In this document: positions 6,701 through 64,000 of the stretch, piece after piece
Position numbering within the stretch: the stretch's first letter is position 1
Layout of the letters: every line of letters starts with the position of its first letter
Virus record (IMG/VR): IMGVR_UViG_3300021440_000015
Span: 56,258-120,257 of that record
From: a virus
Length of the DNA stretch: 64,000 bases
Reading direction: 5' to 3' (one strand)
The notes under the pieces: model-generated
The model's database searches: none
What the model was told of the DNA's origin: nothing
What the model saw: only the letters and a program-made list of their open reading frames with translations
Made by a program: the position numbers and the translations under genes

Positions 6701-6703
6701 GCT

Positions 6704-15416: not shown

Positions 15417-17778
15417 ATGCAAACTGCTATGCTGCCATTTAACATAGACCTGTTAAACCTTTCTGACATAGACATCAGAACCATCAGACCTGTTAAGGTT
15501 CTAGACATAACCGATGGGCTGACCAAGAACTTTCATCCGGATGGTTTATTCAGCACCCAAACCTTTGGTATGGTGGGTGAAGAAAAACGAAATAGGATGT
15601 TCTCTTATATTAATCTGAATATAAAAGTGCTACACCCTATCATCTTTAAATCTTTATACGATCTAAAGTCTCTTTATGGAGATATCATGTCGTCTAAAGC
15701 ATACGCTATATTTGACCCAGAGTTGAAAGATTTTGTAAAATCTGATCAGATAGATGGTCAAACTGGTTTCGATTTCTTCATCAAACATCTACCAGAGCTT
15801 AAATTTGAACAAAACAGTTCTGTAAGAAGACAGTTTAATATCAAGCTAGTGGATAAGTACAGACAAAAAGCTCTTATAGATAAGTTTGTCGTAATGCCTG
15901 CTGGTTTAAGAGATTACGTTTTAGACGAGAATAATCAACCTAGTGAGGATGAAATAAATACACTTTACAGAAGAGTATTATCTTTATCTAGTATTATAGG
16001 TACCGTAAACTCACAGCTAAATGCTGAATACTTCAACAACATGCGGTTTCAGCTACAGCTTGCCTGTAATGAGATTTTTGAATACATAAAAAATCTTCTT
16101 GAGGGTAAAAGCAAACTCATACTTGGTAAATGGGCAGGTAGAAAAACCTTTCACTCCACCAGAAATGTTATTACGTCCTATATCAGCAAGAATACACAGC
16201 TATTTGGTCCTAGACATGTATCATCCACGCAAACTGTAGTAGGCCTGTACCAGTATTTAAGAGCTACTCTGCCTTTATCCATAAAGAATGTGAGGGACGG
16301 TTTTATAGGAAGTGTCTTTACAGGGCCGAACTCACCTATGATACTGGTGAATAAAAAGACGCTGAAAAAAGTAGTAGTTCCTATCAATCCTAAGGAATAT
16401 GACAAATGGATGACTAATGAAGGCTTGGAGAAAGTCTTTGCTACCTATGGACAAGAGAACCTCAGACACAGTTATGTGGAGATATCTGATCACTACGCAG
16501 GTTTAATTTTTAAAGGTAAGGACGGGACTTATAAAATCTTCCAGGACATAGATGAGTTACCCGAACGTTACAGTAGAGAAGATGTGACACCTCTGACTAT
16601 AACAGAACTCATTATGTTGAGTGTCTATGGAGATTCATCTGAAACACCTTGTTTCACAACAAGATATCCTATTACAGGATATGGTAGCATATATCCCAGT
16701 TATGTATATCTTAAAACCACAGTAGAATCTGACACAAGAACCCTGCTAGATGACAAATGGGAACCTACCGAATTTGCTTGTGCTGAGTTTCCAATATACG
16801 GAAATGGGTTTTATAATTCCTTTTCAGTAGCCTCTAAAAATTTATCAAGACTTGGTGCTGATAAAAAGGATAAAAAATGAGTTAAACGTATTCTCATTTT
16901 GTTATCCAATTGTCCTCTTAAATAGTAATATTTAAAGAGATTTTTCTTGAATTGCTGGAACATCCTAAAGTTAATCCACCACCGCTAGATGAAAATCAAA
17001 GCCAAGGTTTGAAAACGGATTAAATGAAACAATGGGTAATCAGCAGCTAAGACGCTAAAGTTGACTCTATAGTCAACCATGCGTAAAGTTCAACGACTAA
17101 CCCTTAAGCAAGGTGTAGGAGATAGTATCTCCGAAGTGGGAAACGCCCTACTGTTTATACAGAGGGTGAAGATATAGTCTGCTCCTTTGGGAAAGCCAAA
17201 GGCGGGTGTCTTAACACACCGGGTTACTTTATGATAGGTTTGAAACCGAACGACTGTAACTGGACAATAGGTTCGATAAGTAACATTGTCGCATACAGAA
17301 GAAATTCTGTAATGAAAACTTCTTGAATTGCTGGAACTCCCTTAGAGCCTAATCACCACTGCGAGGCGAAAGCTAAAGCCAAGGTTTGAAAAGATTAGGA
17401 TTGGGTTATCAGCAGCGAAGCACCGTATAGGTGAACGTTCAACGACCATCCCGTAAGGGAGTAGGATCTAGCAGATCCGAAGTGGGAAGCATCTTATCAG
17501 ATAAAGCTGAAGATGGTGATATGGTCTGTTCCTGTATGAAAGTACAGGCGGGTGTCTGAGCACACCGGGTAAAGAGTGTAGGTTTATATAACCGAGCGAC
17601 TTTACTGGACAATAAGGGTGATACAATGTCCTTAGTTTGCGTTATGTCTGAAGAAGCTAAAGCAGAAATCAGAAATAAGATAAACTCTAGAGATTTTTAC
17701 GTGGGTGTGAACAATAAAATGAACTTTAGTGGTTCTGATGATGTTCTTGACCTTACCTTAGCTAATATGACGGGCTAA
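15417..17778 (+). CDS. virion RNA polymerase beta' subunit, N-terminal part, split by two group I introns
   Basis: Exons are proposed at 15417-16862, 17272-17277 and 17617-17778 (537 aa in total). Start ATG 15417 has AAAGAGG upstream; the earlier in-frame ATG at 15393 lacks one. Exon 1 carries the beta' GK..GR block (LGKWAGRKTFHSTRNVITS). The exons join to read LGAD-FD-GDTMSLVCVMSEEAKAE, matching bacterial [22 protein letters not shown], so the metal-binding triad is rebuilt only after both introns are removed. Unspliced mRNA stops five codons into intron 1. The protein ends shortly after the active site, as in the phiKZ virion RNAP, whose other beta' part must lie outside this window. It is followed after 4 bp by the beta gene. 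Confidence 0.85.
16863..17271 (+). ncRNA. group I intron 1 in RNAP beta'
   Basis: About 409 nt without an ORF. Group I core elements are visible in order: P (AATTGCTGGAA), Q (AATCAGCAGC), R (GTTCAACGACTA) and S (GAAGATATAGTC). A long P1 extension is formed by GGATAA...TGAG with CTCA...TTATCC. P1 itself pairs GATAA across the 5' splice site with TTGTC, giving the expected U-G at the junction. The intron ends in G at 17271. Boundaries come from protein continuity plus P1 pairing. Confidence 0.85.
17272..17277 (+). other. six-nucleotide micro-exon (Phe-Asp)
   Basis: TTCGAT lies between the 3' end of intron 1 and the 5' end of intron 2. It restores frame and supplies Phe-Asp of the catalytic ADFDGD motif. 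Its 3' end pairs with intron 2 (CGATAA with TTGTCG). Confidence 0.8.
17278..17616 (+). ncRNA. group I intron 2 in RNAP beta'
   Basis: About 339 nt with the same P/Q/R/S elements (AATTGCTGGAA, ATCAGCAGC, GTTCAACGAC, GAAGATGGTGATATGGTCTG). P1 is six pairs, CGATAA with TTGTCG around GTAACA, with U-G at the splice site. It ends at G17616. Its 3' third is nearly identical to that of the beta intron. Confidence 0.85.
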
Positions 17779-20700: not shown

Positions 20701-23460
20701 TAACCCTATCCAGAACATGAAAGAATCTGAGATAGTCACATACGTAGGTGAAGGCGGAAGAGGAAAAGAATCTATGAACAAAGCCACTAGGGCTTTTCAT
20801 GTTTCTAATGTGGGTGTGGTATCTGAAGCCTCTGTAGATAGTGGTGACGTAGGTATAAACTTTTATCTTTCATCTAACCCTAATTTTAAGGACATGCGAG
20901 GCATAGTTAAATCTGACAAGAAGATAACTCCTACGTCTATGGTAAGTACAGCCACCATGCTTGCACCAGGTAGTAGTAAAGATGATTAAATATATACAGT
21001 GAGGAACTGTATATGATTGAATGTAATACACCTAATTTTAAGATTCCAAAAGGTTACTCTAAATACAGAGTCTCGCCAGATGGAAAAGTTTTTTCGTTTC
21101 ATAAAGAAAAGTTTTTAAAAGGGTCTATAAATCCAGCAGGTTACACCAATATTAGATTAACATCCGATAATGGTGTAACATTAACTTGGGGATTGCATAG
21201 ACTGATAGCGTTTTGTTTTATTTGTAGTGATTATGAAAAGTTTGGTGAGTTGTATGTAAACCATAAGGACGGTAATAAACACAACAACGCACTTGAAAAT
21301 CTTGAAATCGTAACACCTAAACAGAACGTTGAACACGCAGGTCTTAACAACTTAAGTAGAAAGTGTTTACCTATTTTGGTAAGAGATGTTAAAAGTGGTT
21401 TGATATCGGAATACCCTAGCATCATTGAATGTTCCAAACATCTTGGTGTTAGTAAGGATACTGTTTTATACAGATTAAGATATCTAGGTAAGAGATTATC
21501 GCCATCTGGTCAACAATTCAAACTGAAGAAAGATAAAACACCTTGGGTTGAAATAAAAGATTTAGAAGAAGCGAAAAAACTTTACGGTAGGAACAAAAGC
21601 GTTGCGGTGAGAACATATCCAGCTATTGAAAGAATCACTATCTACAGTAGTTGTAATGAAGTATCGTCAAAATTAGGCTTAAGCGCAGGTTATGTTTCTC
21701 AGTTGTTTTACAACAAAGATCAGCCGGTTATAGATAATTTTATTCAGCTTAAACCTAATGATAATTCGATACCTTGGGTAACACACACAGATTTCATTGA
21801 AAGTTATGAAAATTTCACAGGGTGTAAAGTCATAACTGTTTGGAACTGTTTGACAGACGAAAGAAAAATATATAAGTCTGTCACAAGTTGCGCTAGTGAT
21901 AATGGTATTAAAATAACTACCTTACATTGGCGTTTAAACCAAGAAGCAAAGGTTCACCGTGACGGTAGAAAGTATGTGTATTACAGTCAGTTAAGTCCTT
22001 TGGAAAAGAAACTTTTCAAAGAATCTCTTTGAATTGCTGGGAACTCTTGTTAGATCACTGAACCACTGCGAGGCGAAAGCCAAAGCCAAGGTTTGAAAAT
22101 CAGTGAGTAGAGACAATCAGCAGCTAAGACGCTAAAGTTGATTCTGATCAACCATGCGTAAAGTTCAACGACTAAGGTTTTATCAACCTGTAGGGTACCT
22201 AGCGGTATTCGAAGCGGAGAGCACCCTACTGTATACAGAGGGTGAAGATATAGTCTGTTCCTGTATGAGAATATAGGCGGGTGTCTGAGCACACCGGGTA
22301 AAGAGGGTAAGCTGTGAAGCTGAGCGACTTTACTGGACAGTAAGGGAAAACGCGTCAACTTTGTCCAAATACAGATGTCTCATTTAATCGCGTGTAAAGA
22401 TTATCATCAACCTATCGTAAGAACAGGTTATGAGTATGTAGTACCTAATAGAACATCTGAAATATTTGCCTATAATGCCAAAGACGACGGTGAGGTTATC
22501 TCATTGGCTAAAACTGGTTTGATCGTCAAGTATAAAAACGGCGAGCAAAAAGGCATACAGCTTGGTCGTATTTACGGAAAAGCTGAAGGTAGTGTATACC
22601 CACATGACATTGTTTCTAGTGTTAAACTCGGTGATAAGTTTATCAAAGGTGATAACATAGCTTATAATACAGGTTTCTTTGAGAAAGATTTACTTGATCC
22701 AAAAAGAGTAGTTATGAAAAACTCTATGACGATCAAAGTAGCTCTGATGGAAACCAACCAGACTCACGAAGATAGTTGCTCTATTTCTAATAGAGTGTCT
22801 TTAATGTCTAGTGCCAAAACCACAAAAATGAAATCGGTCACTGTTTCCTTTAAACAAAACTTGCACAATGTTGCATCTTTTGGACAAAGAATAAAACCGA
22901 ATGATATTTTGATGGTAATGGAAGATGAAATTACTTCCACAGGTCATTTTGATGAAGAATCACTTTCACTATTAGCCGACTTATCTAAACAGTCTATTAA
23001 GTCTAAATACGACGGGGTTTTAGATAGAATAGAAGTTTACTATCACGGTAGTAAAGAAGATATGAGTCCTTCTTTAAGAGCACTTGCTGATAAAAGTGAT
23101 CAGGTATTAGAAACTATATGTAAATCGACTAACTCGCCTGTAGTCACGGGTGAAGTTAACGATGAATACAGAGTAGCTGGTTCTCGTCTGAGTTTAGACA
23201 AAGCTGAGATAAAACTTTATATAACCATGGATACAATCAGCGGTACAGGTGATAAACTTGTGTTCGCTAATCAAATGAAGAGTGTGGTGGGTGAGGTAAT
23301 GGATTATGATGTAAAGACAGAATCCGGTGAGAGAGTAGATGCCATATTTGGTTTTCGCTCAATCATGGCTCGTGTAGTGACATCACCTATAATCATAGGT
23401 ACCACAACCACCTTACTTAAAAAAGTTGCTGAAAAAGCTGTCAAAGTTTACAAAGGTTAA
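17783..23460 (+). CDS. virion RNA polymerase beta subunit, main part, split by a group I intron
   Basis: Exons 17783-20986 and 22345-23460 give 1439 aa. The region near residue 935-1040 (PGIVYSQLATAIRQYRTKNI through VSEASVDSGDVGINFYLSSNP) corresponds to the bacterial beta block ending in CPIETPEGPNIGLI. Exon 2 opens with KRVNFVQIQMSH (bacterial NRALMGANMQRQ), then holds ETNQTHEDSCSISNRVS (bacterial NFEDSILVSERV) and ISGTGDKLVFANQMKSVVGEV (bacterial PGDKMAGRHGNKGVI). The chain stops before the beta C-terminal clamp, which I find separately at 675-1340. It carries a large acidic insertion (residues about 290-380) not present in bacterial beta. Without splicing, translation would end at 20989, three bases past the exon. 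Confidence 0.9.
20987..22344 (+). ncRNA. group I intron 3 in RNAP beta, carrying an HNH endonuclease
   Basis: The 1358-nt intron has its core at the 3' side (22030-22344): P at TTGAATTGCTGGG, Q at AATCAGCAGC, R at GTTCAACGACTAA, S at GAAGATATAGTCTG, ending CAGTAAG. An ATATACAG/CTGTATAT stem at 20992-21014 near the 5' end probably extends P1. The endonuclease ORF sits upstream of the core and its stop overlaps element P. Protein continuity (SSKDD|GKRVNF) fixes the boundaries. Confidence 0.85.
21013..22032 (+). CDS. intron-encoded HNH homing endonuclease (339 aa)
   Basis: NUMOD/HNH-type homing endonuclease. There is a NUMOD4-like start (YRVSPDGKVFSF), an HNH_3 core at about residues 60-115 (LHRLIAFCFI, then NHKDGNKHNNALENLEIVTPKQN) and at least three NUMOD1-like DNA-binding repeats (YPSIIECSKHLGVSKDT, CNEVSSKLGLSAGYVSQLF, KSVTSCASDNGIKITTLHW). 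It lies wholly inside the RNAP beta intron and would spread that intron by cutting intronless beta alleles. The start ATG falls in the P1 extension stem, which may limit translation until the RNA refolds. Confidence 0.9.
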   Translation: MIECNTPNFKIPKGYSKYRVSPDGKVFSFHKEKFLKGSINPAGYTNIRLTSDNGVTLTWGLHRLIAFCFICSDYEKFGELYVNHKDGNKHNNALENLEIVTPKQNVEHAGLNNLSRKCLPILVRDVKSGLISEYPSIIECSKHLGVSKDTVLYRLRYLGKRLSPSGQQFKLKKDKTPWVEIKDLEEAKKLYGRNKSVAVRTYPAIERITIYSSCNEVSSKLGLSAGYVSQLFYNKDQPVIDNFIQLKPNDNSIPWVTHTDFIESYENFTGCKVITVWNCLTDERKIYKSVTSCASDNGIKITTLHWRLNQEAKVHRDGRKYVYYSQLSPLEKKLFKESL

Positions 23461-53567: not shown

Positions 53568-55226
53568 ATGAGTATCAAGTCTGATAAATGGATTCGTGAG
53601 AATTCTCTGTTGCGGGACATGATTGTTCCGTTTGTGATGGACAATGAAAACAAGATCGTTGTTCATGGTGAGGAAAAGAAAGTACCTAGCTTTGGCCTTT
53701 CCTCTTACGGTTACGATGTACGCCTGGGTCCTAACTTCAAGTTCTTTCGCGGACAAGAAGCTTACCTGGTGCGTAGCAGCCCTAATTCTGGCGGCGGTCT
53801 GTCTGTTAACACACCTGTATTGGCAAGTACGCTAGGTCGCTCTATCGACATCGCTGATTTTACCAACACTTGTGAGTTGGCTTCTTTTGAAGACCTAGCT
53901 TGGATCGAACTTCCAGCAAAGAGCTTCTGTCTGGGACACACCATCGAAAAAGTGACTGTTCCTCGTGATGTCTCTGTTGTTTGCATGGGTAAATCCACTG
54001 TGGCAAGAGCTGGCATCATCGTTACTGTAACGCCTCTCGAATCTGAATGGTGCTTTACAGGTGATACTGAAGTGGCGTTGGCTAATGGCACGTCAATGTC
54101 TTTTAAGGAAATGGAAGAACGTGCAAAAACCGGCGAGCGTTTCTTTGGATACACATTTAGAAATGACGGAACTATCGGAATAGAAGAATTGTTGAATCCT
54201 AGAAAAACTAGGGCTATGGCAGATCTGGTAGAGGTAACGTTAGACACCGGGGATGTGATACGATGCACGCCGAATCATAAATTCTTAACTAAGAAATTTG
54301 GTTACGTCGAAGCTCAAAATCTAGAAGAAAACATTTCTTTGATGCCTCTTTATAGATATGTCGATAAAAAAGGATATGAGAGCGTGGCCGGCCCTGTTCA
54401 ATATAACACCAGACCTATCTACACTCACAAATTATCAGATCAATGGAATCTTGAAAACCACATCTATCCATTAGTAAATGGGCATGTCCGACATCACATT
54501 GATTTTAATCCAAGAAATAATTACCCTACAAACATTATTAGGATGTCCGATGAAGACCATCATAAGGTTCATGAAACTAAAGAAGGTTACACAGAAGAAC
54601 GTAAGCGCATAGCGGCAATTTCTAGAGAGTCTTTTTATGAAAAATGCAGAACCATTGCAAATTTCAGAGAAATTATGTCAGAAGTATTTAGCAAAGCTGC
54701 TAGAACGTTCTGGGATAGTCCTGAACATGCAGAAACAAGAGCAGGCTGGTTGAAAGCTCACTCTGAACCAAGGCCATATAGACTTAAGTATTTTGACAGG
54801 CAGGTGGTTTTAGATGCTTTTAAAGAATACGGGTCTATAAGGCAAGCAGGCAAAGCGTTGAAAACGAAAGCAGATACATTAGCTAGAAGGTTCCCAGATA
54901 TTGTAGCACAAGCCAGAAGTTTGGGTTACATACCTATGAATCATACAGTAAAATCTGTTAAAAAACTGGTTGAGAAAGAAGATGTTTATTGTCTCACCGT
55001 TCCAAACACGTCAAACTTTGCTTTAGATGCTGGAGTATTTGTTCATAATTGTGGAAATATCACATTGGAAATCACCAACACTACAGATCTTCCTGTGCGT
55101 ATCTACCCTGGCATGGGTATCACTCAGCTTCAGTTCTTTCAGTCGGATGAACAATGTTTGGTGAGCTATGCCGATCGGAATGGTAAGTATCAAAACCAAC
55201 CAGCTGAGCCTGTCCCCCCTATGTAA
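53568..55226 (+). CDS. dcd: dCTP deaminase with in-frame intein (552 aa precursor; 219-aa mature enzyme)
   Basis: Converts dCTP to dUTP on the way to dTMP. Extein motifs are SYGYDVRLG near residue 45 and MGKSTVARAGIIVTVTPLESEW, where the family's catalytic Ser/Arg and Glu reside, continuing after the intein as CGNITLEITN. The intein (residues 162-494) begins with Cys and ends His-Asn, with Cys as the first C-extein residue, so all splicing residues are present. The insertion is in the most conserved active-site loop, so activity depends on splicing. It pairs functionally with thymidylate kinase at 60418. Last gene of the 50-55 kb operon. Confidence 0.9.
   Translation: MSIKSDKWIRENSLLRDMIVPFVMDNENKIVVHGEEKKVPSFGLSSYGYDVRLGPNFKFFRGQEAYLVRSSPNSGGGLSVNTPVLASTLGRSIDIADFTNTCELASFEDLAWIELPAKSFCLGHTIEKVTVPRDVSVVCMGKSTVARAGIIVTVTPLESEWCFTGDTEVALANGTSMSFKEMEERAKTGERFFGYTFRNDGTIGIEELLNPRKTRAMADLVEVTLDTGDVIRCTPNHKFLTKKFGYVEAQNLEENISLMPLYRYVDKKGYESVAGPVQYNTRPIYTHKLSDQWNLENHIYPLVNGHVRHHIDFNPRNNYPTNIIRMSDEDHHKVHETKEGYTEERKRIAAISRESFYEKCRTIANFREIMSEVFSKAARTFWDSPEHAETRAGWLKAHSEPRPYRLKYFDRQVVLDAFKEYGSIRQAGKALKTKADTLARRFPDIVAQARSLGYIPMNHTVKSVKKLVEKEDVYCLTVPNTSNFALDAGVFVHNCGNITLEITNTTDLPVRIYPGMGITQLQFFQSDEQCLVSYADRNGKYQNQPAEPVPPM
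54051..55049 (+). other. mini-HNH intein in dCTP deaminase (333 aa)
   Basis: Starts CFTGDTEVAL (block A), with a block B-like VIRCTPNHKFLT; it ends FALDAGVFVHN before Cys, matching blocks F and G. The middle holds an HNH endonuclease (VRHHIDFNPRNNYPTNIIRM then DHHKVHE) and a helix-turn-helix-like segment (SIRQAGKALKTKADTLARRF). Base composition is more AT-rich than the exteins. All motifs look intact, so both splicing and homing may be active. Confidence 0.9.
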
Positions 55227-55232
55227 ACCCCC

Positions 55233-55268
55233 ATACAGACATCAGCCCATAAAGGCTGATGTCTGTAT
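55233..55268 (+). terminator. terminator hairpin
   Basis: ATACAGACATCAGCC pairs with GGCTGATGTCTGTAT. Ends the dcd operon. Confidence 0.8.
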
Positions 55269-55287
55269 TACCCCAAGGAGTTAAGAA

Positions 55288-55539
55288 ATGTTAATCACGA
55301 TGCAAGGTATGATGAAACAACTGCAAACCAATGATAATCTTATCTTGGTTACTGTGGTAGGCTACACAACAATCAAGAAAGCAGCTCTTGATGAGATTAA
55401 CACAGAGACTTGTGATTTATCATGGGTCTGGAACGCTATGCAAGTTCTGGGTGAGACTCATGAACAGATTTATAAGCGTTTTGAAAATATAGTTTATAGC
55501 TTTCGTATCATGGAAGCTAATAAATGGATCTACCCTTGA
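55288..55539 (+). CDS. hypothetical protein (83 aa)
   Basis: AAGGAG precedes ATG 55288. Short helical protein with two Trp-containing turns (CDLSWVWNAMQVLG) and no known family. Stands between the dcd terminator and the next promoter module. Confidence 0.7.
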   Translation: MLITMQGMMKQLQTNDNLILVTVVGYTTIKKAALDEINTETCDLSWVWNAMQVLGETHEQIYKRFENIVYSFRIMEANKWIYP

Positions 55540-55568
55540 CCATCCTTATGTAAAAGATTTCAGTCACA

Positions 55569-55584
55569 TATACTTAACTTGAGC
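55569..55584 (+). promoter_or_regulatory. early-type phage promoter with structured leader
   Basis: TATACTTAACTTGAGC preceded by GTAAAAGATTTCAGTCACA, upstream bases shared with 58954 and 27947. The leader folds as ATATTC/GAATAT inside AGC/GCT pairing, then GAAGGAGTTATC before ATG 55633. Confidence 0.75.
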
Positions 55585-55632
55585 TTAGGTTCAAATATTC
55601 ATTCGAATATACGCTATGCTGAAGGAGTTATC

Positions 55633-55689
55633 ATGGAAGTCCATGAAATCACCCTGACCGAAGTAGAATGGTTGTTCTACTTCGGTTAA
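55633..55689 (+). CDS. micro-ORF of 18 codons folded into two hairpins
   Basis: ATG 55633 to TAA 55689 encodes MEVHEITLTEVEWLFYFG, with a strong Shine-Dalgarno, its own promoter and an immediate terminator. The RNA forms CATGGA/TCCATG at the start codon and ACCGAAGTAGAA/TTCTACTTCGGT (12 perfect bp) at the end. It could be a real peptide, a leader, or a small RNA that happens to carry an ORF. A full expression cassette for only 18 codons speaks for a product with a function. Confidence 0.6.
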   Translation: MEVHEITLTEVEWLFYFG

Positions 55690-55724
55690 GAGGTGCCCGA
55701 ATTACCGGGCACCTCTTTTTTTTC
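55690..55724 (+). terminator. intrinsic terminator
   Basis: GAGGTGCCCG/CGGGCACCTC followed by T-tracts. Confidence 0.95.
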
Positions 55725-55841
55725 TTTTTTTTTTTGCCCTATCTGTTTAAAAAGTAATCCTTTGACTATAGCGATAACTCTTATCGTTTACAGAAGTTGA
55801 TTGTAATCAGTCAAAGACAACCTTATTTAGCAGAGGTCCAG

Positions 55842-56264
55842 ATGAAAGAACATGACCATATTAAACTGATGGCGTTGACTCTGTTCAACAATCAGTTTAA
55901 CAGAAACCTACGCGTTACAGATTTTGATATGATCTGTATTGCTAAAAAAGCTGATTACCCTATTGCTTTTGAAGCATACACCACAAGAGCAGATGACTTT
56001 CTACGTTTGCGTATTTATTTAAAGATAGGTAAAGCCGATAATCTACTTCCTTTTAAACTGGAAGTAAACGCCCCTTATCACAACACCACATCCGAAGATG
56101 AAGTTTGGGTGACTCTGGGTACCTTAGACGTTTATCATCTTGAGTCAGGCCACCTGAAGGAACAGTTCCTTTATGACTGTCCTGAACAAATGTTGAATTT
56201 AATCCTAGCTGAAGATGGCACACCTATCTTAGGCGAGAATGGTGAATATCTGTTAACAGAATAA
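55842..56264 (+). CDS. hypothetical protein (140 aa)
   Basis: ATG 55842 with GCAGAGG upstream is preferred to an earlier TTG at 55797. Beta-rich protein (DFLRLRIYLKIGKADNLLPF, KLEVNAPYHNTTSEDEVWVT) with a C-terminal ILAEDGTPILGENGEYLL repeat-like end. Unknown function. Confidence 0.7.
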   Translation: MKEHDHIKLMALTLFNNQFNRNLRVTDFDMICIAKKADYPIAFEAYTTRADDFLRLRIYLKIGKADNLLPFKLEVNAPYHNTTSEDEVWVTLGTLDVYHLESGHLKEQFLYDCPEQMLNLILAEDGTPILGENGEYLLTE

Positions 56265-56271
56265 TACTTAC

Positions 56272-56304
56272 ATAGATACTAAGCTGTAAAGGCTTAGTAT
56301 CTAT
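56272..56304 (+). terminator. terminator hairpin
   Basis: ATAGATACTAAGC pairs with GCTTAGTATCTAT. Confidence 0.75.
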
Positions 56305-56331
56305 TAAACACGAAATAGGAAAGAAGGTAAA

Positions 56332-56676
56332 ATGGCTAATAGAAAGATAAGTGACTTTTCGCCGTTAACCACAGCTTCAGGTACTGTTTCTTGGGATTTA
56401 GATACCCATCAAGTCATCCGTATAGAGTTAACCTCTAACGTCACCAACTTCAATATTCAGAACTTAGATCTCACACGGATAGGTTTTGATTACAAAGTGG
56501 TTATTATTCACAAAGGCGGTGATCTTGTATTCCCAGCTAACGTGAAGTTCCCTGATGGTGCAGCACCGGCTCTTACTTTGGTCAACAACAAAATCGATAC
56601 ATTCAGCTTTATGGTGGAGTCCTTTGATGGAGTCACGCCTTATCTGTACTGTGTCGGTTACGCTTTGAACATGTAA
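56332..56676 (+). CDS. small fibre-like protein (114 aa)
   Basis: Starts MANRKISDFSPLTT, the same style of N-terminus as 57126 (MPSKKISEFLMLTT), an attachment sequence common in phage fibre proteins. The rest is beta-rich (VIRIELTSNVTNFNIQNL, YKVVIIHKGGDLVFPANV). Likely a fibre or fibre-tip subunit; the partner is unknown. Confidence 0.75.
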   Translation: MANRKISDFSPLTTASGTVSWDLDTHQVIRIELTSNVTNFNIQNLDLTRIGFDYKVVIIHKGGDLVFPANVKFPDGAAPALTLVNNKIDTFSFMVESFDGVTPYLYCVGYALNM

Positions 56677-56677
56677 A

Positions 56678-56974
56678 ATGAAATTCAATCACCGACTTTC
56701 AGGCAGATACAAGCTAGAGATAGTCGGTAAAGAAGGTATCCGTAACACTCACGTATTCGACAACATGGTGGTCGATAACGGACTTGAACAGATAGGTAAT
56801 AACAACGTATTACTTACTGACTGTCAAGTGGGTGTGGGTAATAATCCAGCTTTACCGACAGATACATCTCTAGAAGTATTGAATAGCTACACAAGTCTGG
56901 TGACTGAAGCCATAAGCTTCAGTCATTCCCAGATTAAACCCTATGTGCTACAGACAACAAAGAGAACGTTATGA
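56678..56974 (+). CDS. truncated fibre-type domain protein (98 aa)
   Basis: N-terminal domain seen at the start of many long phage tail proteins (SGRYKLEIVGKEG, FDNMVVDNGLEQIG, VGVGNNPALPTDTSLEVL), here cut short at KRTL. It starts one base after the previous stop. In relatives the domain continues, so this copy may be a remnant; the frame reopens in the small ORF at 56991-57080. Confidence 0.65.
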   Translation: MKFNHRLSGRYKLEIVGKEGIRNTHVFDNMVVDNGLEQIGNNNVLLTDCQVGVGNNPALPTDTSLEVLNSYTSLVTEAISFSHSQIKPYVLQTTKRTL

Positions 56975-56990
56975 AATAGAGAGAAATCTT

Positions 56991-57080
56991 ATGGCCTTAC
57001 CTAGTAATGTCAAAAGACTTGTCTCAGCAGGTATGGGTACAAGTAATCGTTTACAGGTAAATTATAGCACATTGACTTAA
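56991..57080 (+). pseudogene. possible remnant of the fibre gene (29 codons)
   Basis: ATG 56991 with GAGAGAAATCTT upstream encodes MALPSNVKRLVSAGMG and a short tail. The same frame is open leftwards into the end of the preceding gene, which is in another frame, consistent with a frameshifted or deleted longer gene. Could also be a real small ORF. Confidence 0.35.
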
Positions 57081-57101
57081 CGGTCATGCTATGACCGTTA
57101 A
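57077..57101 (+). terminator. hairpin
   Basis: TTAACGGTCAT-GCT-ATGACCGTTAA; flanking GACT/AGTC extends it. Confidence 0.6.
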
Positions 57102-57125
57102 TAAGTCACTAACAAAGAGGTTATT

Positions 57126-58232
57126 ATGCCTAGTAAAAAAATCAGTGAATTTCTGATGCTTACGACCCCAACGGGTCTTGAGCAAACTGTAGTAGCTATC
57201 GGTGGTGTCAATCACCGTGTCACTTTGAACGCTATCAAGTCTCTGATCACTAAAAATGATCTGGGGTTGGAGTTTGTCAATAATACTTCAGACGCAGATA
57301 AACCTATCTCTACGGCTACTCAAGCCGCATTGGCAGGTAAGTCTAATATGGGTCATACTCACGCCATGGCAGATGTGCCAGGGCTGGTGCAGTATATCAC
57401 CGATCAGTTAACTGCATTAGCAGCTACTCTGTCAGCAGCAGGTCATACTCATCAACTCACAGAAGTGGTGGGATTAGTCACTGCCCTGGCCGATAAGGCT
57501 AATACAGCAGATCTGAACAGTCTGGCGACTGTGGTGGTTAACATCAATACAGCTCTTGCCACCAAAGCAGCTGCAGCACACAGCCACGCTACTGCAGACA
57601 TAATAGGTCTTGATCTGTATGTAGCCAGTCAAATTACCGGTAAAGCTGACGTTAGCCACACACATACAGCTGGTGAAATTTCTGGTTTGACAGCTTTTGT
57701 TCAGGCTCTGATCACAAACGCGATCGCTAGTTTCTCTAGTGTGGGTCACACACATGAGATCTCTGAGATCAATAACCTTACTGCTACTCTAGGTGGTAAA
57801 GCCAATAATTCAGATGTTACTGCATTAGGTACTCTGATCACAGCTTTGCAAACTACTGTAGCTGGTAAAGCAAATACAAACCACCAACATAGTGTAACCG
57901 ATCTCTTGAATTTCGCTTCTGAAGTTCAGGCTATCGTTTCTACTATGAATTTGGCTTCAGTTGCTCACACGCATACAGCAGCACAAGTCACTGACTTTAA
58001 TGCAGCTCTGTCTGTGATCATGCGTGATGTAAATACATTCATGAATGCCACTTCTGGTGCCCATGATGTATTACCACACGCACACACGGCTACTCAGATC
58101 CAAGGCTTGCAAACAGCTATCACTTCTGAACTTACAGTACCTAATCTGGAAACACAGGTGCAGACTATTGTCAATGCTATGGGACTTGGTGCCGTCATAA
58201 ACGCAGTCACTATTGGTGATATCCAGTGGTGA
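57126..58232 (+). CDS. tail fibre protein with repeated HxH motifs (368 aa)
   Basis: N-terminus KKISEFLMLTTPTGLEQT, then an N-terminal domain followed by about eight copies of a histidine motif (GHTHAMADVPGLV, GHTHQLTEVVGLV, HSHATADIIGL, SHTHTAGEISGL, GHTHEISEINNL, HQHSVTDLL, AHTHTAAQVTDF, PHAHTATQIQGL), each followed by a helical spacer. HxH pairs in trimeric phage fibres coordinate metal ions along the axis. The chain ends IGDIQW. The C-terminus lacks a large receptor-binding head, so another protein may supply it. Confidence 0.85.
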   Translation: MPSKKISEFLMLTTPTGLEQTVVAIGGVNHRVTLNAIKSLITKNDLGLEFVNNTSDADKPISTATQAALAGKSNMGHTHAMADVPGLVQYITDQLTALAATLSAAGHTHQLTEVVGLVTALADKANTADLNSLATVVVNINTALATKAAAAHSHATADIIGLDLYVASQITGKADVSHTHTAGEISGLTAFVQALITNAIASFSSVGHTHEISEINNLTATLGGKANNSDVTALGTLITALQTTVAGKANTNHQHSVTDLLNFASEVQAIVSTMNLASVAHTHTAAQVTDFNAALSVIMRDVNTFMNATSGAHDVLPHAHTATQIQGLQTAITSELTVPNLETQVQTIVNAMGLGAVINAVTIGDIQW

Positions 58233-58283
58233 TAAAACCTAGTTCAGGTAATCATTCCCTCTTTAACTTCATAGGAGTCTAAC

Positions 58284-58856
58284 ATGGCACAATTGAAAAT
58301 TAGTAAAGTAACAGCTCTGCCAGGTACCCTGGAAGCTTCTACTCTGTATTTGGTGGCTGATGCCGTTCGTACTAACGACGTTAACATCTATGTGTCCAAC
58401 AGCACCGGCAGTGCTGCTAAACACGTGCCTACGTTTGCTGAACTGGAGACGATGGTCGACGGTAAAGTTACCGCAGGTCTGACCGCTGCTTCTTCGTTGA
58501 AGGTTGTTGCTGACATCACCGCTCGTGATGCTCTGGCTCCTGTCATCGCTACGATGGCTCTGGTGTTGGACGCTACTGGTGATGCTACCGTCTTGGTTGG
58601 CGCTGCCACCTACGTGTATGATCCAGTCGCTCTTGCTTGGTCGAAGATCAGCGAACATGAGTCGCTGGACGTCACCCTGACCTGGGCAAGTATCACTGGC
58701 AAGCCTACCTCGGCTGTGGCTGACATTGATGATGCAGTGACCAAGCGTCATGCACATGCTAACATCGCCGTGTTGGATCTGTTGAGCGACAACACCGGCA
58801 ACCTGTTGTATAACGGTCTGCCTGTTGCTCCCCAGATGCTGGCTGAGCAGTGGTAA
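58284..58856 (+). CDS. fibre-like protein (190 aa)
   Basis: Starts MAQLKISKVTALPGTLEAS, the collagen-like/fibre N-terminal pattern with a predicted beta-sheet (STLYLVADAVRTNDVNIYVS), then an Ala/Val-rich region and HAHANIAVLDLLSDNTGNLL near the end. It finishes AEQW, like the preceding gene's DIQW, suggesting a shared C-terminal capping or assembly signal. Optimal codons indicate high expression. The small size suggests a tip or spacer subunit. Confidence 0.75.
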   Translation: MAQLKISKVTALPGTLEASTLYLVADAVRTNDVNIYVSNSTGSAAKHVPTFAELETMVDGKVTAGLTAASSLKVVADITARDALAPVIATMALVLDATGDATVLVGAATYVYDPVALAWSKISEHESLDVTLTWASITGKPTSAVADIDDAVTKRHAHANIAVLDLLSDNTGNLLYNGLPVAPQMLAEQW

Positions 58857-58880
58857 TCTGACTCATGAGAGTCTAAGAGC

Positions 58881-58918
58881 TTAAGACACACAGAGCCGAA
58901 AGGCTCTGTGTGTCTTAT
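58881..58918 (+). terminator. terminator hairpin
   Basis: AAGACACACAGAGCC-GAAA-GGCTCTGTGTGTCTT. Confidence 0.85.
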
Positions 58919-58953
58919 AAACCCGACTGTCTTTGTAAAAGATTTCAATGTTA

Positions 58954-58969
58954 TATACTTAGTTTGAGC
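58954..58969 (+). promoter_or_regulatory. early-type phage promoter with structured leader
   Basis: TATACTTAGTTTGAGC preceded by TTTGTAAAAGATTTCAATGT. The leader folds as TTCCC/GGGAA and ACCTG/CAGGT stems, then AAGGAGACAAC before ATG 59043. Confidence 0.75.
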
Positions 58970-59042
58970 TATATCGCTAGTTCATTCCCGATCTTGGGAA
59001 AACCTGTAGATGTCAGGTGGTTTAAAACATCAAGGAGACAAC

Positions 59043-59297
59043 ATGAAAGAAGTTACTTCGCAACAGCTCGATATCGAGCTGGCTCGTTTGGCCGGTGAGT
59101 TGGTTAGACGAGCGCGAATGATAGCGCGCATGTGTTCTTCAAAGTCTAAGGATCTTAAGGTTGACACCCTCTTGATCCAAGACTTTGAAGAAAGTCTCAA
59201 AGCTGACCCTTCTATCAAGGGTCAGTTCGCCGCGTGCGACATTATCATGGAAGTATCATACTTCCATGACGTCGAGCCTATCAAGGCAACGGCATGA
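59043..59297 (+). CDS. small protein (84 aa) encoded by a string of RNA hairpins
   Basis: Charged helical protein (SQQLDIELARLAGELVRRAR, KVDTLLIQDFEESLKADPSI) of unknown function, in a promoter-leader-terminator cassette. The mRNA is nearly continuous hairpins: 59064-59081 palindrome, GCTCGT/ACGAGC, GCGCG/CGCGC, 59135-59192 (13 bp TTCTTCAAAGTCT plus GGATC/GATCC), 59203-59225 (9 bp CTGACCCTT/AAGGGTCAG) and 59246-59268 (11 bp CATGGAAGTAT and its complement). The pattern repeats that of 26912-27205, with unrelated sequence. Confidence 0.75.
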   Translation: MKEVTSQQLDIELARLAGELVRRARMIARMCSSKSKDLKVDTLLIQDFEESLKADPSIKGQFAACDIIMEVSYFHDVEPIKATA

Positions 59298-59302
59298 CAG
59301 AG

Positions 59303-59340
59303 AATCCCCAGGGCCAAAAGCTGAGGGGATTTTTTTTTTC
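59303..59340 (+). terminator. intrinsic terminator
   Basis: AATCCCC...GGGGATT then about ten T residues. Confidence 0.9.
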
Positions 59341-59365
59341 AGCCTATGTATAATTTTTTGATCCT

Positions 59366-59381
59366 ATTTACTTTACTTGAC
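59366..59381 (+). promoter_or_regulatory. early-type phage promoter (TTGAC variant)
   Basis: TTTACTTTACTTGACA; ATG 59411 follows 29 bases on, preceded by AAAAAGGAAAGTATC, the same leader end as at 42162. Confidence 0.7.
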
Positions 59382-59410
59382 AGTATCTCATCTTTAAAAA
59401 GGAAAGTATC

Positions 59411-59815
59411 ATGGGTATCGCAGAAAAAACCAAGCTGTTAGAATTTATGCTGGAGAATCCTTTTTTCAAAACCATCTCTCTGATGGAACCTGAGGACATC
59501 GCTGAAATGTTTCAGTCTGAAAAAGAATTCAGAACTGAACTGATAACTATGGAAAGTATGTTTCATGAACTGCTTTGGCAGCAAGGGACATACGACGTCA
59601 TGGTTTTGAGTAACTTCAATCAGACACGCCCTGACAAAAGTAGAAGACTTGAGTTGGTTTCAGAAAAACCTGCGCAAGCTTTTATGGATAAACACATACG
59701 TACCATAAAAGACAAGAAAGTGTTAGCGACTCGCTGGCGTCTGTTTTACCACACACGCAATAGCAAAACCCTGGTCATGGATCGTACCGTGGCTATAATC
59801 AGAAAAGGAGAATAA
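59411..59815 (+). CDS. hypothetical early protein (134 aa)
   Basis: Helical N-terminal half and a charged, basic C-terminal half (KKVLATRWRLFYHTRNSKT). No recognised family. First gene of a short operon that continues through 61618 (gaps of 1 base or overlaps), including thymidylate kinase. Confidence 0.7.
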   Translation: MGIAEKTKLLEFMLENPFFKTISLMEPEDIAEMFQSEKEFRTELITMESMFHELLWQQGTYDVMVLSNFNQTRPDKSRRLELVSEKPAQAFMDKHIRTIKDKKVLATRWRLFYHTRNSKTLVMDRTVAIIRKGE

Positions 59816-59816
59816 C

Positions 59817-60428
59817 ATGTTTAAAATAATGCTGAAAACAACGTTCGATAAATTGCTTGCTGATTGGAAACAATACGGTATCGTGCATGAGCGAAGTGAT
59901 GCAGCGTCTCGTAAAGAAATCGTAGCTGCTACCCTGGCTAAGGATATGCTTTACATGCCTGTTTATCATCAGTCAGATGCATGGGAAGATCCACTGGTTG
60001 GTTTTGTGACTCATGTTCACACAGACCGTAAAGGCGCACCTTTGTATCATGTCTTTGACTGGATTACCGGTGAGACCAAAGTGACTTTCTCAGTCACTAA
60101 GTGGGTCAATATGGACTCATGGAAAAATCATACCAAATCAGGTATACTTCCCATCATGGACCTGACACCTTACCAACGTTACAACTTCTTGGTCTGTAAT
60201 GAGTACAAAAAGAAAGTTGTGGGTGATAACTGGGAAAATCCGGAGTTCACAAACTCTGAACAGCTTCACCATAAGCTTTCGACAAGTGGATTCTTTGATA
60301 TGGTTGAGAAAGTCTATACAGCAGAAAACCCCATGCTTCTGAAGAATATTCTTCTCTCTGCTATTTCAGAACATGAAGATGAATTCATCGCACGCAACTT
60401 TATTAAAGGACAAATCAATGAGCAATAA
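59817..60428 (+). CDS. hypothetical protein (203 aa)
   Basis: ATG 59817 lies one base after the previous stop, with AAAAGGAG just upstream. Trp- and Tyr-rich soluble protein; central segment (VGFVTHVHTDRKGAPLYHVF) is beta-like. Unknown function. Its end overlaps the thymidylate kinase start by 11 bases. Confidence 0.7.
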   Translation: MFKIMLKTTFDKLLADWKQYGIVHERSDAASRKEIVAATLAKDMLYMPVYHQSDAWEDPLVGFVTHVHTDRKGAPLYHVFDWITGETKVTFSVTKWVNMDSWKNHTKSGILPIMDLTPYQRYNFLVCNEYKKKVVGDNWENPEFTNSEQLHHKLSTSGFFDMVEKVYTAENPMLLKNILLSAISEHEDEFIARNFIKGQINEQ

Positions 60429-61077
60429 AATCGGGAAGTTGATCGCTATCGAAGGTATCGATGGCGTTGGTAAAGCCACTCAGGCTAAGCTACTGGCTGA
60501 AAACATGTCTAAGCTTGGCTTGAAAGTTTTCCTCTCTGGTTATCCTCAATACCAATCTGATACAGGTAAGTGCATCGCAGCTTATCTTAACGGAGAAGGT
60601 AAAGATCTGTCCAGAACAGAAATCTCAGATCTTTACACAGCTGATCGCGCAGCTCATAAAGATGTGATCGAACAAGCTCTGTTAGAAAATGATTATGTGA
60701 TATTAGACAGATACATCTTGTCTAACATTCTGTATCAACAAGCTTTAGCTGAGCACCCTGAAGACGCTATATACATGAAAAAGTATACTGAATATTCTGA
60801 GTATGTCCACTCAGCACTCAGACCAGCCGACATCACTTTTGTACTTACTCTGTCAGAAGAAGTAGCTGCTCAACGTGTGCTTCAAAAAGGTCAGCGTGAT
60901 TACACAGACAAGAAGCAAGATGTCCATGAGGCTAATAGCACTCTGATGTCTAAAGTGACTAAGCTGTGTAATGGACTTCCAGATAACTACTATAGTAAAA
61001 TCATCAAGATAGATTGCCACGGTTCTATCGACATGGTCCAAGCCAGCATCTTGATGAAGATCGAAGGTCATGATTGA
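60418..61077 (+). CDS. tmk: thymidylate kinase (219 aa)
   Basis: Phosphorylates dTMP to dTDP. P-loop at residues 12-21 (EGIDGVGKAT), the DR(Y/H) motif in VILDRYILSN, and a lid region around QRVLQKGQRDYT. The start ATG 60418 gives the standard N-terminus (KLIAIEGIDGVGKATQAK). Together with dCTP deaminase it supplies dTTP for phage DNA synthesis. Translationally coupled with both neighbours (overlap of 11 and 8 bases). Confidence 0.92.
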   Translation: MSNKIGKLIAIEGIDGVGKATQAKLLAENMSKLGLKVFLSGYPQYQSDTGKCIAAYLNGEGKDLSRTEISDLYTADRAAHKDVIEQALLENDYVILDRYILSNILYQQALAEHPEDAIYMKKYTEYSEYVHSALRPADITFVLTLSEEVAAQRVLQKGQRDYTDKKQDVHEANSTLMSKVTKLCNGLPDNYYSKIIKIDCHGSIDMVQASILMKIEGHD

Positions 61078-61618
61078 TCTGCTCAGTAACCGTACCTACA
61101 CAGGTATAGGCAACAGAGATACTCCTCAGTTCTATCTAGACGCTATGACTAAAGTAGCTGCCCTTCTGGAGCAGAAACAATATATCTTGCGTTCAGGTGG
61201 TGCTGATGGAGCAGACTCAGCGTTCTATCAAGGTGTTAGAAATAAACTGAATTGTGAAATCTATCTACCCTGGAAAGGTTTCAACGATTTAGATTATCAA
61301 TATCACATACCAAACGAAGCTTACAGAATCCTGGAGAACGTTTGTCCTTACATGGATAAATTGACCCCAGCTATTCTTAAGCTATATGGTAGAAATGTAC
61401 TTCAGATACTAGGGAATGATTTGAGCCATCCTAGTAAGTTTGTTATCTGTTATACCAGAGATGGTTATATAGGTAGAGGGACTACGAGTACAAGAACTGG
61501 TGGTACTAAGATCGCTATAGATTTGGCATGTTTGTATAATGTACCTGTGTTTAATCTCAAGATCACAGAACACTATAACCGCATAGCTAATTTCTTTAAT
61601 GGCGATAGCGTCAATTAA
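61070..61618 (+). CDS. SLOG/DprA-like Rossmann protein (182 aa)
   Basis: The N-terminal pattern TYTGIGNRDTP followed by LRSGGADGADSAFYQGV and IYLPWKGF is characteristic of the DprA/SLOG superfamily found in many large phages. The C-terminal GGTKIAIDLACLYNVPVFNL completes the nucleotide-binding fold. SLOG proteins bind or cleave nucleotide derivatives; the ligand here is unknown. Its start overlaps thymidylate kinase by eight bases. Confidence 0.85.
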   Translation: MIDLLSNRTYTGIGNRDTPQFYLDAMTKVAALLEQKQYILRSGGADGADSAFYQGVRNKLNCEIYLPWKGFNDLDYQYHIPNEAYRILENVCPYMDKLTPAILKLYGRNVLQILGNDLSHPSKFVICYTRDGYIGRGTTSTRTGGTKIAIDLACLYNVPVFNLKITEHYNRIANFFNGDSVN

Positions 61619-61648
61619 AAATACCCTGTGTGACCAGGGTATTTTTTT
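61617..61648 (+). terminator. intrinsic terminator
   Basis: AAAATACCCTG-TGTGAC-CAGGGTATTTT with T-tract. Confidence 0.9.
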
Positions 61649-61728
61649 ATTCGTGTTTGTAATAGAATGCGGAGAGTAAGCCGGATTAGCTCAGGGACGG
61701 ATACTGTTTAAATCAGTGTAAGAACACC

Positions 61729-62241
61729 ATGACTAAAAACGCAAACACGATAATAAATCTTGAGGAACCTTTTTCATATCTTTGGAAAAGAGGATATCTG
61801 CAAACACACCCATCTGGCCGAAAATACGTATGTCTTTTTAACAACAATAGCTGTAGAACATTGATAAGCTATGCCCGTTATCTAATGTCTGTTAAATTAG
61901 GCTGTTTGATACACAAAGATTTGACTGTGGATCACATCAATAACGACAAAACAGATGATCGAGTAGAAAATCTTCAATTGCTGTCTTTGTCTGAAAATAT
62001 AAACAAGGAAGCTAAAAGATACATAGACGAAGTACAGATAAGACATAATTTAAAATGTCAAGTTTGCGATAGAAACTTCGTGATAACAGACAGACTTTAT
62101 AAAATGAAACGTAAACAAACAGATAAAACTTTTTGTAGTAATTCATGTTCAACAAAATTTCACAAAACAAAAAAAAGGATTGTCATAGGTTGTCTGTTCG
62201 ATTCACACCCGTGGCACCAATCCTTTTCCAGAATAATTTAG
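61729..62241 (+). CDS. free-standing HNH homing endonuclease (170 aa)
   Basis: HNH core VDHINNDKTDDRVENLQLLS at residues about 63-82, preceded by a typical RTLISYARYLMSVKLG block. The C-terminus has a zinc-finger-like Cys set (CQVCDRNF, CSNSCSTKFHK). The insert is AT-rich. Flanking sequence shows tRNA-like pieces: GCCGGATTAGCTCAGG at 61682-61697 and TTCGATTCACACCCGTGGCACCA at 62201-62223, suggesting that it invaded a tRNA gene. No RNA splice core is evident. Confidence 0.85.
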   Translation: MTKNANTIINLEEPFSYLWKRGYLQTHPSGRKYVCLFNNNSCRTLISYARYLMSVKLGCLIHKDLTVDHINNDKTDDRVENLQLLSLSENINKEAKRYIDEVQIRHNLKCQVCDRNFVITDRLYKMKRKQTDKTFCSNSCSTKFHKTKKRIVIGCLFDSHPWHQSFSRII

Positions 62242-62284
62242 TGATAAATGATTCTAACTGACTACATCGTGAGATATAGATATT

Positions 62285-62373
62285 ACCAGGATGCCCAAAT
62301 AGGTAAAGGGAACGGATTTAAAATCCGTCGACTGGAGACGGTCTTACGGGTTCGAGTCCCGTTCCTGGTACCA
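62285..62373 (+). tRNA. tRNA-Leu (UAA anticodon)
   Basis: Full cloverleaf: acceptor ACCAGGA/TCCTGGT, anticodon stem ACGGA/TCCGT with loop TTTAAAA (anticodon TAA), long variable arm (CGACTGGAGACGGTC) typical of leucine, T-arm ACGGGTTCGAGTCCCGT and an encoded CCA. Fits the AT-rich codon use of the phage. Confidence 0.9.
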
Positions 62374-62947
62374 TTTAACCTAAGTAAATCGGAATAGACT
62401 TTATCGTATCGATGGTAACTAACAAGTCGCTGCTTAGTAAATCTAGTGTTTAAACATTTCTTAATGTGCGTATATCATTGCGGATTGCGGAGTTAAGTTA
62501 ATAGATCGCTTGCGGGCGTAAGGCTAGGGTGCAGGTATTGACCATTGGTAACTTAGGTAAACGTACTATCGGGACGTTAGCGTGATAACAAAATACACGC
62601 ACGATGGAGCAGTATAAAGTGATCGGTATTTTCACTTAGTTGATAAAACAAGGAAGATATAAACTGTCGATCTAGGACACGGTTTCCCAGAGCTGTGTTT
62701 GATGCTTTTAAAATCCCCTGGGATCATGCATGCTGACCATTGTTCAGGCGCGATGTGGCTCTAGCTTCGAGGGTTAGTACCAAAGCAAGCAGGCGATTCA
62801 CACGTCTTTATTATAATAGGTTGTGGTTATCTACCTTTGTGATATGATAACAAGTTAGCACTCAGGTGTTTGCCTGTAGCAGATTAGATAGACAGAAGTC
62901 ATTTAGTCTGCTATGGGAAAATCCCTTTCTAAAAGAATGAGGTCACA

Positions 62948-62963
62948 TAAACTTCATTTGAGC
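62948..62963 (+). promoter_or_regulatory. early-type phage promoter driving a hammerhead ribozyme
   Basis: TAAACTTCATTTGAGC preceded by GGTCACA. GAGCC, the probable transcript start, is the first strand of ribozyme stem I, so RNA would begin right at the ribozyme. Confidence 0.7.
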
Positions 62964-63037
62964 CTTATCTATCTGATGAGTCCTAAGGCTTTAAACACAA
63001 GGACGAAACACATCACAAGTGTGTAATAGAAAGAGGT
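62961..63037 (+). ncRNA. type I hammerhead self-cleaving ribozyme
   Basis: Core in order: CTGATGA at 62973-62979; stem II GTCC/GGAC (62980-62983 with 63001-63004) around a 17-nt loop; GAAA at 63005-63008; stem III ACACA/TGTGT (63008-63012 with 63020-63024); NUH triplet GTA ending at 63025, so the predicted cut is after 63025; and stem I TCTAT/ATAGA (62968-62972 with 63026-63030), extended by more pairs outward. All catalytic-core nucleotides are present. The open helix is stem I, hence type I. Confidence 0.88.
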
Positions 63038-63527
63038 GCGCTCACGATATTAACCTGCCTTAACTTTTTGTTAGGAGTAGAAGGTGGTCTAACCAACCGC
63101 CAAATCGTACGCCCTATGGATAAAGCTTGTATCGACTACCCTTGGTCGGGAACTTTATGAGCTTTATCTTTGGGAAGTTGTAAACTTTGGGATTGATCAC
63201 CCCAGAGAGCAGCCTATAAGCTATCTTGAAATACAGATAGCTTTAGAGTGCTTAGGTATCAAAAATACAGCGAGATTCTCAATTGAGAACTCGGGTGTCT
63301 TCAGTGTTATGTTGATGAATTAAAACACTGTCGTATTAAGGCTCTGTGCTTATTATAGCACAATCATCTTAACCCTTACCTGAACTACTGGGTATGTGGC
63401 GATTGAGTTAAACAGATGTAGCTTATCCATTCACCAGGTTTTGTTAACCGGTAACACGAGTCGGTGTTATAAATATCTTGGATGTGGTGACTGACACATC
63501 CTTCTCTATCTTGTAATAAATAGAGAA

Positions 63528-63625
63528 ACAAAGCCGTCTGGTATAGACGAGTGGTGAAACTGGAGCAGCGCTGTTCTGCGTAGAAAGTTTACACACTTAA
63601 CATGTTCGATTCATGTTGGCTTTGT
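63528..63625 (+). ncRNA. tRNA-like cloverleaf (degenerate class II form)
   Basis: Acceptor-like stem ACAAAGCC/GGCTTTGT, a perfect T-arm ACATG-TTCGATT-CATGT, an AAGT/ACTT variable stem and a GCAG/CTGC anticodon-like stem. The D-region is replaced by GTCTGGTATAGAC and there is no CCA. The anticodon loop lacks T33 in its simplest reading. More a tRNA relic or mimic than a working tRNA. Confidence 0.5.
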
Positions 63626-63759
63626 TCTTAATTAGGGACAGTTTGTTGATGCAAGTGATCAGTCTACCCAGACTCGGTTGTCACAAGCAGATACAAATTG
63701 TCCCGCCTTTATTTTTTTACCCGAAATTATTTGGCTTTAACTATATCGATGGTGCTAAA

Positions 63760-63981
63760 ATGGATTTTATTATAACAACACATTTGGCTTTTGTAATTTT
63801 TGGTTTTGTCTTAACAGCTATCTGTGCTTATCTTTTTTATGATGAGAGAGGCGTAGACTTCAGTGCTACCACAGGTGGTGTTTTGATAGTGGTATCTTTA
63901 GCCCCTTTGTTGAATATATTTTCAGCTCTGGTGTTATCGATGGTGGTTTTCAGAGAGATAAAAAAGAGGTTTAATAAATGA
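63760..63981 (+). CDS. small two-helix membrane protein (73 aa)
   Basis: ATG 63760 starts MDFIITTHLAFVIFGFVLTAIC, a first membrane segment. A second, GGVLIVVSLAPLLNIFSALVLSMVV, follows, with a basic C-terminus (FREIKKRFNK). The open frame to the left (from 63613) overlaps the tRNA-like structure and is not used here. Small membrane proteins of this form can be holin- or superinfection-related, but there is no direct evidence. The stop overlaps the next ATG. Confidence 0.65.
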   Translation: MDFIITTHLAFVIFGFVLTAICAYLFYDERGVDFSATTGGVLIVVSLAPLLNIFSALVLSMVVFREIKKRFNK

Positions 63982-64000
63982 TGATTGGTAACGAAATAGT
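63978..64000 (+). CDS. start of a truncated gene at the window edge
   Basis: ATG at 63978 (or 63981, same frame) overlaps the stop of the membrane protein and runs off the window; MMIGNEI is visible. Too short to identify. Confidence 0.4.

Follow-up and report, generated by a model that had tools for sequence, protein, structure and literature searches.

A predicted type I hammerhead ribozyme at the promoter-proximal 5′ end of a large structured noncoding RNA in a jumbo-phage lineage

In the window, the whole 64,000-nucleotide stretch of viral DNA that was analysed (bases 56258–120257 of a 120,257-base IMG/VR virus record), a promoter-driven transcript probably opens with a hammerhead ribozyme that would trim the leader off a large noncoding RNA and leave it with a fixed 5′-OH end, the cleavage being predicted. 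Computation establishes that the hammerhead is present and conserved, that the promoter has a recurrent motif, that the downstream RNA is structured, and that other phages have promoter–hammerhead–tRNA layouts. Hammerheads are common in phages, yet what they do in prokaryotes is, according to one review, still unsettled (PMC6155905); hammerheads that open a noncoding transcript or cut exactly at the start of a tRNA would offer a concrete mechanism for them, accessible to experiment.

The window encodes the beta subunit of a multisubunit RNA polymerase, split over two ORFs by a group I intron, as well as a PhuZ tubulin and a virion structural protein. Known jumbo phages have polymerases with ~30% identity to this one, and a megablast search of positions 55000–64000 against the phage collection returned no close record. 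Judged from these sequences, the phage belongs to a jumbo-phage lineage without a close named relative, and the polymerase and PhuZ bear out the assignment to jumbo phages made in an earlier note on this DNA. Two relatives carry the comparison: L006 (IMGVR_UViG_3300046313_000313) and G004 (IMGVR_UViG_3300046328_000321), the latter a syntenic contig found through its RNA polymerase (66% polymerase identity), in which the order of a dTMP kinase gene, a DprA-like gene and the hammerhead matches that of the window. The elements at the 5′ end of the putative transcript are as follows.

62925–62962, + strand: phage promoter, made up of an upstream TAAA-type element and GGTCACATAAACTTCATTTGAG (62941–62962)
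62960–62966, + strand: 5′ tail of the transcript, complementary to loop II (62985–62991)
62968–63030, + strand: type I hammerhead ribozyme, with cleavage predicted between 63025 and 63026

The ribozyme is composed of stem I (UCUAU 62968–62972 with AUAGA 63026–63030, 5 pairs), the core segments CUGAUGA (62973–62979) and GAA (63005–63007), stem II (GUCCU 62980–62984 with AGGAC 63000–63004, 5 pairs and a 15-nt loop) and stem III (ACACAU 63008–63013 with GUGUGU 63019–63024, 6 pairs). It shares with described type I hammerheads (PMC3088659; RF00163) the CUGANGA ... GAAA core and UH site (here CUGAUGA, GAAA and U63024-A63025), three helices round the core with the open end at stem I, and, by complementarity in a register picked post hoc, a pseudoknot that joins the stem I side to the loop of stem II. 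The earlier note had claimed that all core nucleotides and three helices are present and that cleavage falls after 63025; the first claim is borne out by direct reading, by a three-helix scan and by conservation with covariation in G004, and the second by the placement of A17 at 63025 in both the reading and the scan.

The scan, which required the core and three helices of at least 4 pairs each, had the hammerhead at 62968–63030 as its sole match in the window and gave 2 matches per 19.2 Mb of random strand, or ~0.013 expected per window. The Rfam model Hammerhead_1 (RF00163) matches at the correct position with 16.1 bits, below its gathering cut-off of 34, which is a model threshold and not a defining chemical feature; in our reading, the long loop II lowers this score. 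Since 13 of 14 control genomes also have matches to the model at E ≤ 10, no conclusion can be drawn from the Rfam score by itself. When the segment is folded in isolation, its minimum-energy structure includes all three hammerhead helices, at an unremarkable energy (z −1.43; 19 of 200 shuffles were as good). For a chance resemblance to a hammerhead the low Rfam score would speak, but against it stand the scan estimate and the conservation with covariation in G004; the G004 copy makes it very unlikely, and we put its probability close to nil.

The copy in L006 is identical to that of the window and so adds no covariation. In G004, aligned on the core, both bases have changed in two pairs of stem I, one of stem II and two of stem III, and likewise in pairs of the pseudoknot; the core itself is untouched, with every catalytic nucleotide and the GUA triplet at the cleavage site retained alongside helix sequences that differ. 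Because of this conservation with compensatory changes, we take the hammerhead, as read from its sequence, to be a real feature of type I with predicted cleavage. Persistence of the core in related phages, a check proposed in the earlier note, thus has its answer in one identical copy and one with compensatory stem changes. Across 51 records (relatives and tRNA-array phages), only the hammerheads of the window, L006, G004 and two further contigs, L009 and L010, looked real among the matches listed. Two candidates were set aside: at a weak BLAST match to the hammerhead core in contig G023 there is no ribozyme, and in contig G008 the matched part is the promoter.

Pseudoknots of this kind have been described for all three types of hammerhead, in work that includes prokaryotic and phage examples (Perreault et al. 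2011; PMC3088659). Here, the 5′ tail adjoining stem I is complementary to the 5′ side of loop II in three lineages whose sequences differ, namely the window, G004 and L009/L010, with 5–7 predicted pairs in the window, depending on the exact transcript start. With shuffles constrained to the pairing register, which was picked after the data had been seen, p for a pairing as long as that observed is 0.005 for the window, 0.007 for G004, 0.002 for L009 and 0.0003 for L010; unconstrained, the complementarity is weak (p 0.05 for the window and 0.11 for G004). Only the register-constrained test is convincing, and its register is a post hoc choice. The tail GAGCCUUA (62960–62967) is also perfectly complementary to UAAGGCUC (63337–63344) in the body of the noncoding RNA, a pairing that would compete with the pseudoknot.

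That the motif adjoins a large folded RNA, and that its tail may have this long-range alternative partner, would suit a structural three-way junction within the fold of the noncoding RNA, one that no longer cuts or that cuts and religates. However, a mere junction needs no full core, whereas G004 has retained its catalytic nucleotides and GUA triplet despite its changed helices, and we consider such a junction very unlikely.

The promoter element in front of the ribozyme is a 22-mer that recurs in the window, L006, G004 and G008; G008 is a relative with a polymerase identity of only 40%, yet the 22-mer is present there just before a gene. A matrix built from 15 other sites, with the hammerhead sites excluded, gives it 38.2 bits at 62941–62962 against a maximum of 11.3 in random sequence of similar composition. 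The window has 11 strong sites, all on the + strand, and the ten further copies (at 2485, 6363, 26833, 27940, 28595, 42157, 48446, 55562, 58947 and 59360) amount to a promoter map of the phage. Recurrent AT-rich motifs in AR9, phiKZ and phiR1-37 are reported to be early promoters from which transcription starts ~6 nt downstream (PMC7598289, PMC5312081). With a recurrent motif here and that literature spacing, the transcript should open with the hammerhead, its start, by analogy, probably lying at ~62961–62962, at the ribozyme. Like the early promoters of AR9 and phiKZ (PMC5312081, PMC7598289), which are recurrent conserved AT-rich motifs upstream of operons, the element can be found by sequence alone; the motif sequence, which varies from phage to phage, is unlike theirs. 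The earlier statement that an early-type promoter ends where stem I begins therefore stands as regards the promoter itself, and the recurrence expected of early promoters is seen. The ‘early’ class, however, is an analogy drawn from literature on such phages, and the abutment of promoter and ribozyme is not universal, since G004 has ~47 nt between the end of the promoter match and the pseudoknot tail. A start at 62962 would give a released leader of ~64 nt, in line with the ~65 nt foreseen.

In the order of events that we propose as the simplest account, the promoter would start a transcript whose first ~64 nt form a complete type I hammerhead, the fold of which would be closed when the 5′ tail forms its pseudoknot with loop II. 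After ~70 nt had been transcribed the ribozyme would be complete and would cut co-transcriptionally after A63025; the promoter-derived leader would be discarded with a 2′,3′-cyclic phosphate end, and the 3′ product would be a folded noncoding RNA of ~690 nt with a fixed 5′-OH end. The hammerhead would then be a built-in 5′-end processing device for the noncoding RNA and, apparently, for phage tRNAs elsewhere. Protection from decay that senses 5′ phosphates, correct folding and assembly are candidate uses of the 5′-OH end. From these arrangements we infer that the ribozyme cuts in infected cells, where exactly transcription starts and what the trimming is for. The parts of the predicted 3′ product are listed below.

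63026–63718, + strand: 3′ cleavage product, a structured noncoding RNA of ~690 nt, from its fold z-score and conserved pairing
63044–63256, + strand: core domain of the noncoding RNA common to G004, from sequence comparison
63527–63626, + strand: tRNA-like element, read by eye on the consensus fold
63635–63718, + strand: 3′ terminal helix GGGACAGUUUGU/ACAAAUUGUCCC followed by a T-run, a likely intrinsic terminator

No credible ORF is found between 63026 and ~63718. The predicted folding energy of this region is −230 kcal/mol, compared with −178 for shuffled sequences (z −9.83); for short windows such z-scores are a weak argument, as one coding control reached −4.25. The consensus fold of the window and L006 has 211 pairs, of which three are changed on both sides, seven on one side and none is broken, and 172 pairs predicted in the window are kept in L006, against 95 ± 23 with the same number of random substitutions. 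The order of hammerhead and noncoding RNA is the same in G004, and within the shared core domain 8 of 52 consensus pairs have both bases replaced in one or more of the sequences. The tRNA-like element has a 9-pair acceptor-like stem, a GG-containing D-like hairpin and a UUCGAUU T-like loop and lacks a normal anticodon arm; neither ARAGORN nor Rfam calls a tRNA at this place. In the terminal helix a U-to-C change in L006 preserves pairing, and the noncoding RNA of G004 likewise ends in a helix and a T-run. Taken as modelled, the downstream RNA is a large structured noncoding RNA and not the mRNA of a gene.

The RNA matches no Rfam family. GOLLD (RF02032) at E ≤ 10 has no match in the window record, the L006 record or G004, and ROOL (RF03087) has none either, in a search whose control was silent as well; the full Rfam scan was also without ROOL. 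An identity with GOLLD, ROOL (with the reservation of that silent control) or another known RNA was rejected for want of any match. Relatives in pattern searches of viral contigs came to L006, G004 and two chance protein-coding matches; the scan is not exhaustive, as G004 contains one of the patterns yet was not returned for it, apparently because the stored contigs are in pieces. A further 48 matches in bacterial contigs, about the number expected by chance and with no further similarity, were rejected as relatives. Just three contigs are known to have the noncoding RNA, and two of these share 94% identity; if our reading holds, a large structured RNA not described before is present in a lineage with a PhuZ tubulin and an RNA polymerase of its own.

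Upstream of the promoter, after a tRNA-Leu, lies another structured noncoding stretch (62374–62930), which is conserved with L006, folds less strongly than the downstream RNA (z −2.44) and has no counterpart in G004, where the hammerhead is kept. It raises the alternative that the hammerhead separates two RNAs of a longer transcript: the stretch is conserved and folds somewhat better than shuffles, and read-through from upstream would include the hammerhead as well. A strong promoter match stands between the two RNAs, however, and G004 has the ribozyme without the upstream stretch, so we regard such a separation as unlikely. These two observations also weakened an arrangement in which the hammerhead is the middle of a single 1.35-kb RNA.

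The earlier note had placed the hammerhead at the 5′ end of a phage transcript, which is upheld, and had expected cleavage to alter the stability or reading of what follows, which is the less likely role as far as a downstream gene goes, the cargo being a ~690-nt noncoding RNA with a terminator. Tuning of the stability or translation of a downstream protein gene, whose mRNA would be protected or exposed by a 5′-OH end, might be sought in the small ORF that follows (63613–63981, with a likelier start near 63760), and other phages do have a promoter and hammerhead directly before ordinary ORFs (L104, 2660–2830; L026, − strand, near 4611), which means that the device is not confined to noncoding cargo. 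Here, however, the structured and conserved noncoding RNA and its terminator intervene between the cut and the ORF, and in G004 the gene past the terminator runs in the opposite direction. We judge control of a downstream gene to be distinctly unlikely; 5′-end maturation of the noncoding RNA is the more likely role, since the RNA downstream of the cut is large, structured and noncoding and ends in a terminator.

Similar layouts occur in other phage lineages: several of the 110 distinct hammerheads from viral loci, a sample that the search patterns had enriched, are linked to tRNA genes. L009 and L010, T4-like by gene content and with nearest named phages that include Melnitz, have TTGACA-17-TATAAT, a hammerhead and tRNA-Asn in this order; in L009 the tRNA-Asn called by ARAGORN lies 11 nt past A17, and in L010 the same spacer precedes a disrupted tRNA-Asn. 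L362, a 302-kb contig, combines at 7510–7708 a perfect TTGACA-17-TATAAT, a hammerhead and a tRNA-His 16 nt past the predicted cut. The −10 box ends 25–26 nt before the core in L009, L010, L362 and L049, and a scan for the promoter and CTGATGAG gave 80 matches, three of them with complete hammerheads (L009, L010 and L362). As the predicted cut falls 10–16 nt before the tRNA in L009/L010 and L362, RNase P would still be needed there. Closer still, L053 (8394–8525) has one tRNA-Tyr and L058 (347-kb contig; 6478–6756) two whose first base directly follows the predicted cut, and in both contigs the 3′ strand of stem I is the start of the acceptor stem; the first tRNA-Tyr of L058 was read by eye and has only a partial Rfam match. 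From their sequences, these tRNA-Tyr hammerheads are a possible substitute for RNase P. In L052, a permuted tmRNA (RF04321, 65.6 bits) lies at 12111–12325, and the same viral contig has a hammerhead 66 nt before a tRNA-Gln.

We tentatively suggest, as an idea for which the chances are nearly balanced, that promoter-proximal or tRNA-fused hammerheads have repeatedly served phages as processing enzymes of their own for the 5′ ends of structured RNAs, for the giant noncoding RNA here and for the exact mature 5′ end of tRNA-Tyr elsewhere, where they would replace host RNase P at that step. If so, phages would have an RNase P-independent route to RNA 5′ ends.

Phage hammerheads, their pseudoknots, tRNA-associated theta ribozymes and large ornate phage RNAs are already known (PMC3088659, PMC10879173, PMC12286853). 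Described phage hammerheads lie in prophage gene blocks or intergenic regions (PMC3088659); the one reported here differs in forming the first nucleotides of a putative phage-promoter transcript and in having a large noncoding RNA as its cargo. The HDV-like theta ribozymes (Kienbeck et al. 2024; PMC10879173) are likewise small self-cleaving ribozymes beside gut-phage tRNAs with a proposed part in end maturation, but they have another fold and are proposed to act on 3′ trailers, whereas the hammerheads here are on the 5′ side, by prediction; that study makes no mention of hammerheads. The ornate RNAs GOLLD and ROOL (PMC12286853) are, like the RNA described here, large, highly structured phage noncoding RNAs close to a tRNA gene, but GOLLD has no match here, nor has ROOL in the search with the silent control, and PMC12286853 mentions no self-cleavage for them. 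In the open-access literature searched, which took in few subscription papers and no bioRxiv preprints, we came across no description of a hammerhead joined to the promoter of a phage noncoding RNA, nor of one that cuts at the 5′ end of a phage tRNA. The view that promoter-coupled hammerheads of jumbo phages are undescribed is in keeping with that search, although the layout itself is not limited to jumbo phages.

Three group I introns were found in the window (16882–17201, 17268–17548 and 21972–22277), the first two almost adjoining each other ahead of the RNA polymerase gene and the third inside it, where it splits the beta subunit into two ORFs. A dCTP deaminase-like ORF at 53568–55226 contains an HNH endonuclease domain, possibly as an intein. 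On the reverse strand of L006 (3800–4720 of the reverse complement), the counterpart of the window's intact tRNA-Leu is broken up by an HNH ORF and a second tRNA-Leu; the latter itself has a group I intron.
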